Assembly: GCA_910576125.1 (NCBI GenBank)
Contig: CAJTHM010000001.1
Coordinates: 124,001 to 188,000, forward strand
DNA length: 64,000 bases
Direction: 5' to 3'
Origin: Lachnospiraceae bacterium
GTDB taxonomy: Bacteria; Bacillota; Clostridia; Lachnospirales; Lachnospiraceae
The position numbers were made by a program, and so were the translations under genes. Positions 3,731 to 8,056 of the stretch are shown piece by piece (position 1 is the stretch's first letter; every line of letters starts with the position of its first letter). Below the pieces are notes generated by a model. That model worked only from the letters and a program-made list of their open reading frames with translations. It searched no databases and had not been told where the DNA came from.

Positions 3731-4582
3731 TTAATCCGGAGACTCGTATTTCTCTTCCCTGCTTATTTCTTTTGCCACAACCACGAACCGTCCGTCCTCC
3801 ACATGGTAGGCACAGGTGGACAACGTCAGGAAGTGGTCTCCCAGTTCTGCTGTCACTCCTGTATCATACAATGATATTTCCTTTATATTATCATAAAAAT
3901 AGTCAAATTCCATCTCATTATCCGCTTTGAAGAAATTGTAATATTTGAATACTAAATCCGTCGGATAATAGACCTGACTGTAAAAGGCCGCTATGACTTC
4001 ATATTCTCTCTTATCTGTCCTTGTATAGATTTCCATATGTTTATGCTCTGCATAATAATTTTCATCCTCATATTGCATCAGGCCTCCGAACATGGTTCCC
4101 GCTTTCATATTATGTCCGTGAATGATGAGATTCGTGGTTTGGTTCTCTCCAAAAGGCTGACTGTCAACATCTAAAATGAGACAGCCTGCTTTGTCTTCAT
4201 TTCCATAAAAATCGCGATTCAGATAATAATTCTCATCCTCCGGAGTCTGCACGACAGGATAGTCAATGGCTGTCCCATCTACCACAAGCCAAAAGGCCAT
4301 GTCTCCATTTTGCAGAAAGAGATCTGCATAAGGATTCTTTTCCAGGGGTTTGGGCGTAGGAGTCGGGGATGACTGCTCTGGTTCCTCTGCGGGCTCCTCT
4401 ATACTTTCAGGCTCCAGCGCTACTCTCAATTCCTCCATTTTATCCTCTGACTCCATCTCCTGGCCATAAAAGTTCCCAAGCAGACATATCATCACGATTG
4501 CTGCTGCCACCGCCACAACAACACCTGCCACTGCGATTATTTTCCACTTGTCTATACCTGTATTTTCCTTATTCTCTTCCAT
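3731..4582 (-). CDS. Class B sortase
   Basis: A membrane-anchored cysteine transpeptidase that attaches surface proteins to peptidoglycan. The start is placed at the ATG at 4582 (MEENKEN) because GGGAAAGGG lies upstream; a longer frame begins at 4636. The 283-residue protein has one N-terminal membrane helix (about 13-36), a Glu/Pro linker (50-80) and the sortase fold. Catalytic residues are seen: H157 in IIHGHNM, C257 in TLSTC and R265 in DGRFVVV. The gene overlaps the end of the upstream membrane-protein gene by 14 bases. The operon's first gene ends in VPKTG, a plausible substrate of this enzyme. Confidence 0.92.
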   Translation of the reverse strand: MEENKENTGIDKWKIIAVAGVVVAVAAAIVMICLLGNFYGQEMESEDKMEELRVALEPESIEEPAEEPEQSSPTPTPKPLEKNPYADLFLQNGDMAFWLVVDGTAIDYPVVQTPEDENYYLNRDFYGNEDKAGCLILDVDSQPFGENQTTNLIIHGHNMKAGTMFGGLMQYEDENYYAEHKHMEIYTRTDKREYEVIAAFYSQVYYPTDLVFKYYNFFKADNEMEFDYFYDNIKEISLYDTGVTAELGDHFLTLSTCAYHVEDGRFVVVAKEISREEKYESPD

Positions 4583-6173
4583 TCTGATTCCCTTTCCCGG
4601 CATCTTTTCTCCGGCACTCACTCTCACACACCGCAATCACCAGAAAAATGAGCGGAGTAGATACCGCCTGTCCAAAGCTGAAAAACTGGTTCGCCACATA
4701 AGCGCCCACAGCCATCATACCGGCCATCATCCTCCGGTTCTCTCTGCCGTTCTTCCAAAACCTGCAAAATGCTGAGAGGAAAAAGCCCAGATAAGCCACA
4801 AATCCAAGAATCCCCTCATTTACCAGCATGTTCAGCCACTCATTGTGCGCATTGGCATATATGGCCCCCATCCATTGCCCCGTTACCCCTATATCAATCG
4901 TTTCGACCTCATAGAAATAGCGGGCAAAGCAGTCCGGGCCCACACCATATAGCTTTCGCACAAAATCAGTCCTGCAAAATCCATTCCATACAGCTGTCCA
5001 GAGGCCTCCCCTCATGTTCCCCCATTCAGCATCAAACCGCAAAAATCCTGAACTCCCAAAAAAATGCCAGACAGAATCTGATACCTGACAACCCGCAAAT
5101 ACCGCCGCTGCCCCGATGACAGCCGCTGCCGTCAATATCTGTACCGCTTTCAGAACCTTGCCGCTCTTCAGATAATCTTTGCCGCCGCGCCTGCAAATCA
5201 GCCGAAGCAATACAATTCCCACTGCCAGTATTCCCAACGGAATACCCCATAAAGGGGTACATATCCTTTCAATTATCCCATCCATGTCATAGGGAAGAAT
5301 CAAATCCATCTGTGTCGCCCATGCCAGAAAACAAAACAGCGGAACCAGCAGCACAGCCTCCAGAAAACGCAAAAACAGCCTCGTCTCCTGTAAAGAACCG
5401 AACATGAGAATGACATACATCACCAGAAGCGCTGCGTACCCGCTGGTACTACCCTGCAAAATGACAGCAGCGACTCCCACAAAAGCAGCAATTCCAGCCG
5501 GAATCCGTTTCCACCTTTCCTCCGCCCAGAAACAATACAGCAAAAGAGGAAATGCCACTGACAGATAGCTGCAGTACCAGTTTATGTTCCCAATGGTGGA
5601 AAGAAGATTCCTTCTATCCCAATCCCACCAATCCATATCCTTAAATGTACCCAGCGGATCATATCCCTGACGATTCAGAACGCCCAGCAGGCACACTGCA
5701 AACACCGAGAGCCAGACAATTCCGGAAATCATTTTTTCCTTCTCATACCACCTGCTCACCAGGAAATATCCCCCCACCAGGAAGAACTGGGTCAGCAGTC
5801 CCATATACCAGCCGGAATACCCCACAAATGCCGTGTCCTTATAATTGCTGAACAGATAAGAAAGAAACGATATTGCCGCAAATCCCAGTGCAAAATAATC
5901 CGTGCCGGAAAATCCGCCATGTATCCTGCGCCATTCTATCCGATTTTCCTGCAGAGGCCGGCTCTTATGCCGCCACCACCAGCCTGTACAGAATCCCAAA
6001 GCACTCAGCAGCCAAAGCATCAGAAAAATCAGTGACACCCCTCGGAAAAGAAGATATTTTGCGTCAGCGAGCAGATAGAAGCCATCTTTCATATAAATCG
6101 GCAATACTGCCCATATCAATAACAGATATGCCGATGCGATTATTTTCTGAAATCCCGCGTATCTGGTCTCCAT
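4569..6173 (-). CDS. O-antigen ligase / Wzy_C-like polytopic membrane protein
   Basis: The start is set at the ATG at 6173 (METRYAG), which has GGGAGGG upstream; the frame continues to 6245 but has no better start. The 534-residue protein has roughly twelve hydrophobic segments. In its C-terminal half a loop contains GVGPDCFARYFYEVE and YANAHNEWLNMLVNEGILG. The H-x-E/N-x(n)-GxxG pattern of that loop is characteristic of the Wzy_C family (O-antigen ligases, polymerases and PglL-type protein O-oligosaccharyltransferases). It lies between the genes for a Ser/Thr-rich anchored protein and its sortase. Transfer of glycan either to the wall or to that protein is therefore possible; this is inference. 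Confidence 0.82.
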   Translation of the reverse strand: METRYAGFQKIIASAYLLLIWAVLPIYMKDGFYLLADAKYLLFRGVSLIFLMLWLLSALGFCTGWWWRHKSRPLQENRIEWRRIHGGFSGTDYFALGFAAISFLSYLFSNYKDTAFVGYSGWYMGLLTQFFLVGGYFLVSRWYEKEKMISGIVWLSVFAVCLLGVLNRQGYDPLGTFKDMDWWDWDRRNLLSTIGNINWYCSYLSVAFPLLLYCFWAEERWKRIPAGIAAFVGVAAVILQGSTSGYAALLVMYVILMFGSLQETRLFLRFLEAVLLVPLFCFLAWATQMDLILPYDMDGIIERICTPLWGIPLGILAVGIVLLRLICRRGGKDYLKSGKVLKAVQILTAAAVIGAAAVFAGCQVSDSVWHFFGSSGFLRFDAEWGNMRGGLWTAVWNGFCRTDFVRKLYGVGPDCFARYFYEVETIDIGVTGQWMGAIYANAHNEWLNMLVNEGILGFVAYLGFFLSAFCRFWKNGRENRRMMAGMMAVGAYVANQFFSFGQAVSTPLIFLVIAVCESECRRKDAGKGNQNGRE

Positions 6174-6207
6174 TGGATTCCCTCCCAAAACAGGCTTTTT
6201 CACTGAA

Positions 6208-6242
6208 AAATGGAGGGGGAAAGATGACTTTCCTCCTCCATT
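6208..6242 (-). terminator. Hairpin between the surface-protein gene and the membrane-protein gene (attenuator)
   Basis: On the minus strand TGGAGGAGGAAAG pairs with CTTTCCCCCTCCA across a four-base loop, followed by TTTTTC. It stands after the stop codon of the first operon gene and before the second, so it likely ends most transcripts there and lets a fraction continue, giving more surface protein than sortase. Confidence 0.7.
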
Positions 6243-6266
6243 CACAGCTTTGCCTATTTAAAAAGA

Positions 6267-7046
6267 TTATGCTCTTTTCTTCTTATTCAGGGCAACTACT
6301 GTCATAGCCACTGCCGCAAAGCATACAGTAGCGGTAACAGGCACTGCTACAGGCAGCTCATCACCAGTCTTGGGAACAGAATCCTTTGTAAGATTGTTCA
6401 ATGAACCCTTAGCAACAGGAACTATTGCATAAGCAGAGAACCTGTCCGTATCAAATGTAACTGTTGCAGGATCGCTGTCCAAATCGGGCAGAATGGTTAC
6501 GGCACCATTATGGATGCGAATGACTGCCATATCGTACACATTCCCATCAAACGGGGTTGCTACGACAAATCTAACAGGAGCGCTCAGTTCATACACCTTG
6601 TTGTCTTCAACATTTCTTCCATAAATCTGCATCGAAAGATCGAATGCATAGTAATCGTTCGCACCTAACTGCTGCGCTGTATTGCTGATTATCCTGTTAG
6701 CCGCCTCACCAGCCATTCCTTCAAAAGTCGGAACTACATACTCGCCTGCATTCAGTCCTCCGACTGCTGCGGCCAGAACATTCTCAGATGTCGTAACTGC
6801 CGCCGCCATTCCTGACGTATTCGCTACCGGAACTGAACTCGCCACGGTGGCTCCCCTGGATGTGGTCACAACAGTAGTTGTTGCTCCTCCTGCTGAAGGC
6901 GTTGACGGCGTTGATGTACTGGTGTTGTTGCTCGTCGCAGATACTACCATGCTTGGCAAACCTACGGTGTCAGCAATGGCTGGAGAAACGAACATCGCAG
7001 CTGTCGCCATCGCCACTGTCAGGGCTAAAAGTACTCTTTTTTTCAT
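6267..7046 (-). CDS. Sortase-anchored Ser/Thr-rich surface protein (VPKTG signal)
   Basis: The start is the ATG at 7046 (MKKRVLLALTVAMATAAMF), with GGAGG ten bases upstream, giving 259 residues; the frame runs up to 7079. A signal peptide (cleavage near PAIA-D) is followed by a stretch very rich in Ser, Thr and Ala (about 30-90). Then comes a compact domain with DYYAFDLSMQIYGR and AVIRIHNGAVTILPDL. The end is a cell-wall sorting signal: VPKTGDE, a hydrophobic helix and the tail NKKKRA. The Ser/Thr stretch is a plausible O-glycosylation or wall-spanning stalk. It is the first gene of an operon with a Wzy_C-like protein and a class B sortase. Ligand or role unknown. Confidence 0.85.
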   Translation of the reverse strand: MKKRVLLALTVAMATAAMFVSPAIADTVGLPSMVVSATSNNTSTSTPSTPSAGGATTTVVTTSRGATVASSVPVANTSGMAAAVTTSENVLAAAVGGLNAGEYVVPTFEGMAGEAANRIISNTAQQLGANDYYAFDLSMQIYGRNVEDNKVYELSAPVRFVVATPFDGNVYDMAVIRIHNGAVTILPDLDSDPATVTFDTDRFSAYAIVPVAKGSLNNLTKDSVPKTGDELPVAVPVTATVCFAAVAMTVVALNKKKRA

Positions 7047-7105
7047 TTTTCTTTTCCTCCTCAGATGAATTATAGGCACAAAAATATTTGCCCTACTGAT
7101 AATTC

Positions 7106-7132
7106 ATTTTACCCCCCCAAGAAAAATGTCAA
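7106..7132 (-). promoter_or_regulatory. Promoter of the surface-protein operon with a G7 tract in the spacer
   Basis: On the minus strand a perfect TTGACA (7132-7127) and TAAAAT (7111-7106) are separated by 15 bases, seven of which are consecutive G (7118-7112). The start would be near 7099, leaving a short leader with the GGAGG site. The spacer is two bases shorter than the usual 17, and a homopolymer in this place can change length by slippage. Confidence 0.65.
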
Positions 7133-7168: not shown

Positions 7169-8056
7169 CTATTCTGTCTGCTGCCGCAGATCTATCGTGT
7201 TGCTCCAGGCTTTCCTGCCGTCTGCCGCCGTCACCTCCGCGCGGATAAAGGTTTCCCAGGGCTGAACCTCACAGGAGCTTTCAGTCAGGCTGCTCCCGCG
7301 CACACATCTCCCTTTTGCCCAGACCGCGTTCGAGAAAAACGATATACGGTCTGCCGGACTACATTTTACGGTAATACGGTTCCCCTCCCGGAAGAGATGG
7401 AGTTCCGGTCCCTGTGTGGCATAAAAGTCCTTTCTCCTGATTGCCTCCAACAGTTCAGTGTCCGATGCCTCCGGCCCGCACGCAAGCATGATATAGGAAG
7501 TCGTCTCGTCCTCGCCATTATAATAATGAGTGTCATCATCCGCAATCAGAGGATACAGCCGTCCCCTGCAGGCTGAACTGTCCACAAAATCCCCCGAATA
7601 AGGGCGGGAAGACTCCCCTGCATCCGATACTGTATTGTAGATTTCCGTTGCCCCGATTCCCTCCAGAGCGCAGGTCTGCTCCGCTGTATTCAGGGACCAC
7701 GCCGGATGCGCCAGCACTGCCAGCCCCCCGCAGCGATTGATTCCATCGATTATATCCTGCGCCAGGACGTCTCTGTCGATACACGGCTCTCTGTCACAGC
7801 CCAGCGCCAGGATATGGAACACTCCCTCCGCGCCGTTTCCTCCGCCGATATTATACTCCGCCCCTGAAAGGATCCTCAGCCCGCCGATCATCCCGCTCTC
7901 GCGATACTTCCAGTGGTCTGTCACCGCGATGATATCATAACCGGCCTCCCGGTATATGGCCGCCGCTTCCTCCGGGGTCTTATGGCCGTCAGAGTCTGTG
8001 GTGTGGAGATGCAGGTTCACTTTCAGCCTGGTCTGTCCAAACATGTCTGTCATCAT
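7169..8056 (-). CDS. PHP-domain phosphoesterase
   Basis: The PHP metal-binding motif LHLHTTDSDG lies near the N-terminus, followed by AVTDHW, SGAEYN and AVLAHPAWS, which carry the His, Asp and Glu ligands of a trinuclear metal site. Relatives hydrolyse phosphoesters, for example histidinol phosphate or nucleotide 3'-phosphates. The ATG at 8056 (295 residues) places the PHP domain right at the start. A longer version from a TTG at 8146 would add 30 residues without family similarity. The C-terminal 80 residues look like a beta-sandwich (HLFREGNRITVKCSPADRISF). No operon partner is visible. Substrate unknown. Confidence 0.82.
   Translation of the reverse strand: MMTDMFGQTRLKVNLHLHTTDSDGHKTPEEAAAIYREAGYDIIAVTDHWKYRESGMIGGLRILSGAEYNIGGGNGAEGVFHILALGCDREPCIDRDVLAQDIIDGINRCGGLAVLAHPAWSLNTAEQTCALEGIGATEIYNTVSDAGESSRPYSGDFVDSSACRGRLYPLIADDDTHYYNGEDETTSYIMLACGPEASDTELLEAIRRKDFYATQGPELHLFREGNRITVKCSPADRISFFSNAVWAKGRCVRGSSLTESSCEVQPWETFIRAEVTAADGRKAWSNTIDLRQQTE

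Follow-up and report, generated by a model that had tools for sequence, protein, structure and literature searches.

Does the run of seven G between the −35 and −10 hexamers of a Lachnospiraceae promoter make transcription of the operon downstream adjustable by slippage, or is the run a fixed or incidental part of that promoter? The promoter lies on the minus strand of the window, the whole 64,000-nucleotide stretch of DNA analysed here, where positions 7132–7106 read TTGACA-TTTTTCTTGGGGGGG-TAAAAT, exactly as an earlier note on this DNA had described. The −35 hexamer TTGACA (7127–7132) is perfect, with TTGACA or TTGACT in the orthologues that share G7, and the −10 hexamer TAAAAT (7106–7111) matches at 5 of 6 positions. 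The spacer of 15 bp (7126–7112) ends in the G7 tract itself (7112–7118; C7 on the plus strand), which abuts the −10 hexamer. Judging from the spacing to the −10, transcription would start at about 7099 (7097–7101), followed by a Shine-Dalgarno-like GAGGAGG (7056–7062) and, downstream of it, the ATG start codon of the first gene at 7046, all on the minus strand. Both hexamers fit a standard sigma-A/sigma-70 promoter, and a standard sigma-70 scan with 16–18-bp spacers misses this one because its spacer is 15 bp. No Rfam element was detected at gathering score in the 64-kb window. A dyad (GAATTAT...ATAATTC) occurs at 7105–7067 on the minus strand, downstream of the −10 and ahead of the ribosome site, with a folding z-score of −1.17 against shuffles. 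A conserved 5′-leader hairpin was rejected on this value together with z-scores of 0.24 and 0.00 in two orthologues and a different hairpin (z −2.42) in a third genome, G033.

With respect to the operon, its three genes are all encoded on the minus strand. The first (6267–7046) specifies an exported-type protein of 259 aa with a sortase-type C-terminal anchor, consisting of VPKTGD, a hydrophobic stretch and KKKRA, and its start is signal-peptide-like by our own hydrophobicity rule. This protein gave an NCBIfam LPXTG_double match far under the cut-off and no Pfam family at E ≤ 1. The second gene (4569–6245) encodes a Wzy/O-antigen-ligase-like membrane protein of 558 aa, with weak matches to Wzy_C (Pfam) and PEP_O_lig_1, both below cut-off and the latter denoting similarity to exosortase-type O-glycosylation ligases; it is 66–67% identical to its counterparts in two related genomes, G410 and G439. 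The third gene (3731–4582) encodes a class B sortase (Pfam Sortase, 1.3e-11; TIGR03064, 8.2e-42; solved Sortase B, 1.7e-28), whose TIGR03064 score of 143.1 bits is just short of the cut-off of 153.75. Taken together, these features suggest an exported protein that the Wzy-like product may glycosylate and the sortase may anchor. The cell-wall-anchored protein proposed in the earlier note is thus predicted here from the signal-peptide-like start, the VPKTGD anchor and the sortase in the operon.

A chance origin of the run was rejected on dinucleotide shuffles and on reversed-pattern and C-run controls. The tract at 7118–7112 is the sole G7 in the 64-kb window, where shuffles average 17.5, and long G-runs are therefore depleted, or avoided, in this DNA. 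The shorter GGGGGG is likewise about tenfold under-represented across positions 1–64000 (6 occurrences where dinucleotide shuffles predict 60). The whole genome contains 125 overlapping G7 matches, and 7132–7106 is its only match to the pattern TTGACN{5,17}GGGGGGTAWWAT, the reversed-pattern control giving 0 in the same genome; by a back-of-envelope estimate, one such coincidence in the genome has a probability below 1%. A second candidate in this genome, G8TAAAAT (L021), was set aside, as no TTGAC lies within 30 bases before its run and it appears by eye to be the end of a coding frame.

The same architecture recurs in related bacteria. Of 299 Lachnospiraceae genomes, 26, the window's included, contain the pattern, 35 times in total, and its reversed form gave 0; a C-run version gave 1 match in the 299 family genomes and 5 with its own reversed control. 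Within the window's genus, 48 of 138 genomes have it, with 125 matches altogether (one for the control), and the largest number in one genome was ten (G013). In a class-wide taxonomic sample the pattern was present in the window's genome and in one of 147 others, which also had a control match, and a G11 case was found in the order-level relative G053 by a fixed-length pattern with three mismatches allowed. A few of the genus and family matches resemble coding chance by eye (e.g. G014, G025, G396, G011/G437 and G410:C6/G026:C1). Starting from the runs themselves, 111 tracts of G8 or longer were counted in 13 genomes preselected for a promoter match, each followed by a non-G base with another non-G six bases on; the next bases were TA in 57 and TANNAT in 19.

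Conservation across these promoters is confined to the two hexamers, the run and a C that often precedes it, with little else and no evident dyad. Of 90 genus poly-G promoters, 71 have TAAAAT as their −10, compared with 13 of 63 ordinary promoters. Promoters regulated by MerR-type proteins have a 19–20-bp spacer and a dyad operator. Assignment to that type was rejected, given the 15-bp spacer in the window and the lack of an evident shared dyad among the 57 members whose non-G part has 9 bases; ATACC-G-run-GGTAT occurs in some long-tract members and is not general. Phage contigs also hold the pattern (20 stretches), and a follow-up with fixed flanks found no clean length variant among them. 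In one phage trio the tract is G12 in two contigs; the remaining contig, identical at 613 of 615 flanking positions, has an interrupted run of 15 bases that an assembly error could explain; two other phage-contig pairs have equal tracts.

Several individual loci deserve mention in their own right. A sixteen-G run at G361:C21:16942 (L139) is followed by ATATTTTT, which is not a −10 box. One poly-G promoter is present in three copies in G290 (C31:50, C45:29183 and C46:69070), two of them near contig ends. Downstream sequence can be read for two of the copies, and the proteins that follow them differ, which suggests a duplicated or mobile leader cassette. In L279 (G459:C7), three paralogous genes for predicted membrane or exported proteins lie within about 5 kb, each behind a separate promoter with G7 and a 16-bp spacer.

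The genes behind these promoters are enriched for predicted export. By our crude hydrophobicity rule, signal-peptide-like genes followed 21 of 31 family and 36 of 60 genus promoters, compared with 15 of 60 ordinary promoters (Fisher p = 1.1e-4 and 1.9e-4, respectively), figures that depend on an automatic gene picker with some surely wrong picks, on control genes that were not de-duplicated and on a genus set merged by the first 25 residues, so that relatives are counted repeatedly. The family count used 33 of the 35 matches (the window's own locus and one of the three G290 copies were omitted), 31 of which gave a gene. As a separate observation, a c-di-GMP-I riboswitch directly follows the poly-G promoter at 3 of 14 loci scanned (L051, 1549–1615, plus strand; L078, 1387–1477, minus strand; L080, 3959–4047, minus strand), in genomes G088 and G290, two of the three coming from one genome. 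These loci possibly pair a slippage-prone promoter with second-messenger control.

In terms of spacing, the poly-G promoters differ from ordinary ones. Among ordinary promoter-like matches without a G-run (1.6 Mb, six genomes), spacer lengths peak sharply at 17 bp (48 of the 79 between 15 and 19 bp), whereas the spacers of 33 family poly-G promoters range from 11 to 20 bp, with 2 at 17 bp. In these 33 the run is 6–11 G and the non-G part 3–12 bases (7–10 in 27 of the 33); run and non-G part both vary, and the broad spacing therefore does not come from the number of G alone. Within the genus the picture is more uniform. G7 with a 16-bp spacer is the commonest form. It accounts for 38 of the 65 distinct promoters retrieved from among the 125 matches, a share biased by the choice of mainly many-copy genomes, and in all 10 promoters of G013; the non-G part is 9 in 57 of 90. 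One setting shared by so many genus promoters looks like a favoured fixed element. This uniformity, together with the TAAAAT preference, favours a reading in which the G-run serves as a fixed recognition element: about seven G beside the −10 would be required, either by a regulator or RNA-polymerase-associated factor or by a special helix geometry of the G-run, their number would be mostly constant, and the promoters would form a regulon rather than a contingency system. The sparse conservation outside the core elements and the lack of an evident dyad argue against it, as do run lengths that extend from G6 to G12 across the class. We consider this explanation, with the origins proposed for the requirement, somewhat doubtful, and it nonetheless keeps real weight beside slippage.

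Related promoters also bear on this choice. We compared nine cross-species pairs, all drawn from a fixed-cut screen except L287/L293, which was picked by eye. Tracts differ by one G in five of the nine (L270/L276, L271/L277, L291/L296, L287/L293 and L190/L201) and are unchanged in the other four (the first copy in L272/L277, L273/L278, L289/L294 and L292/L295). The extra G is the sole indel over 1,677 aligned bases in L270/L276 (99.05% identity) and over 92 aligned bases in L190/L201; L271/L277, L291/L296 and L287/L293 have 3, 4 and 22 gaps in total, tract included. In the fixed-cut screen itself, tracts were unequal in 5 of 11 cross-genome pairs, two of which share a partner, and in 0 of 7 within-genome pairs; the second copy in L272/L277 repeats L271/L277, and L290/L291, a pair within one genome whose tracts differ by one G, falls outside the nine. 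Single-G steps are what slippage would predict and, in promoters otherwise identical or similar, count against a recognition element of set length. The equal tracts within genomes are in keeping with such an element and, like the four unchanged pairs, count against slippage. The steps are seen between species, each represented by one genome, and homopolymer assembly errors could have contributed to them, above all in the longest tracts.

The window's own operon provides a further comparison. Searching with the first protein gave matches (E ≤ 1e-10) in 13 of 138 genus genomes, some of them to a different gene, and the Wzy-like protein had matches in 101 of 138, often several per genome. Among the best-scoring 30 Wzy-like loci, 9 have an anchored-type protein just upstream (L002 and L003, which by their coordinates duplicate G439 and G410, were counted once), and 6 of these 9 operons have a poly-G promoter. 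Four of the six, in the window, G439, G410 and G033, have G7 with a 15-bp spacer; the G458 operon has G10 with 19 bp and the G062 operon G11 with 20 bp. The corresponding operons of G069, G429 and G016 have no poly-G promoter within 170 bases upstream of the gene, which counts against the recognition element; G7/15 in four orthologues counts in its favour. G028 has an anchored-type protein beside a sortase and no adjoining Wzy-like gene, and no G-run was found upstream of that protein. In G412 and G413 (L335 and L336), a protein with an apparent LysM-domain end replaces the anchored protein upstream of the Wzy-like gene, and these LysM-type genes have a G7 promoter-like sequence with spacers of 13 and 14.

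The orthologues also speak to two further explanations. A functional promoter with an incidental and invariant G7, the operon being weakly expressed from its 15-bp spacer, would be compatible with so short a run and with the 15-bp spacers of ordinary matches (4 of 79 within 15–19). We judge it improbable, since the exact module is kept ahead of first-gene proteins in G439, G410 and G033 that are just 36–49% identical to the window's, in leaders that have otherwise changed, and since the architecture recurs far above controls. That transcription starts elsewhere is very improbable. TATAAT at 7074–7069 is a perfect −10, but it has by eye no −35 and would initiate transcription at the ribosome site or within it; the three orthologues with G7 have the poly-G promoter and lack TATAAT in the 170 bases preceding the start codon. 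Read-through could come from a PHP-domain-like gene of the same strand whose end, at 7169, lies 36 bp before the −35; it is at odds with G410, where a different gene lies upstream and the promoter is kept.

We return to slippage, which, as a whole, we regard as the best explanation and as somewhat favoured: 7132–7106, a member of a recurring Lachnospiraceae class, would be a promoter of the housekeeping-sigma type that is adjustable through its G-run. The run makes up the 3′ half of the spacer and directly adjoins the −10 box, such that replication slippage adding or dropping a single G would shift the −35/−10 distance by one base. These spacing steps would tune transcription of genes that often encode exported or surface proteins, and in long-tract members would probably switch it. 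The usual spacer optimum is 17 bp, and seven G is short for rapid slippage. At two below the optimum, the window's G7/15 bp is most likely a weak and fairly stable setting, which a gain of one or two G (G8 or G9) would raise, as anticipated from that optimum in general promoter knowledge and from the precedent of porA. Frequent slippage depends on tract length, which is G7 in the window and its three orthologues and G10–G11 in the two others.

The proposal of the earlier note has thus gained lineage-wide support in part, as that of a promoter adjustable by slippage, from conservation of the module in three other species, from one-G differences in the class and from tracts of G7, G10 or G11 in the six operons, with slippage as the presumed cause of these differences and altered transcription as their presumed effect. 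At the window locus itself, an identical G7/15 in four species despite such divergent first proteins argues against switching.

A wider interpretation, which we offer tentatively, is that Lachnospiraceae have a genome-wide contingency system, in which as many as ten poly-G promoters in one genome are set independently by slippage, making a clonal gut population a mosaic of surface types. A single design (TTGACA, about 9 nt, G-run, TAAAAT) would then stand before lipoproteins, anchored proteins and glycan operons, with some promoters feeding a c-di-GMP riboswitch. If tract length does set expression, the gut commensals of a large family would have slippage-based surface variation that is invisible to surveys of invertible promoters, and a simple sequence signature would be available for the variable surface genes of uncultured species. 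This reading can be checked by counting G in existing reads.

Homopolymer tracts that act on surface structures are known from other bacteria. In Bordetella fim, a poly-C tract in an activator-dependent promoter controls a surface structure; the present case is similar in having a homopolymer in the promoter region and a predicted surface structure, and differs from fim in the base and in the activator dependence. Among the open-access articles listed as matches, judged by title and the start of the abstract, none appeared to describe poly-G spacer promoters in Lachnospiraceae. Another precedent is Bifidobacterium breve, also a Gram-positive gut commensal with sortase-dependent surface structures, where a G-tract slips and switches the reading frame of sortase pili (PMC9187656, in which promoter-spacer G-tracts are mentioned in passing). 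There the tract is intragenic, whereas here it occupies a promoter spacer. A parallel in position is porA of Neisseria meningitidis, where gain or loss of one base in a poly-G tract between −35 and −10 alters transcription (PMC3899988), a precedent that the earlier note also cites. As in porA, the homopolymer lies between the hexamers (7118–7112) of a promoter whose product is predicted to be surface exposed, and tract length differs between close copies within the class, the within-genome pairs being equal in 7 of 7. In contrast to porA, which belongs to another phylum, the run described here abuts the −10, the −35 is perfect and the same design is seen in many species, with as many as ten copies in a genome. 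Set beside the poly-G spacer promoters of Neisseria and the intragenic G-tract switching of Bifidobacterium, the Lachnospiraceae promoters represent a variant that is apparently new.
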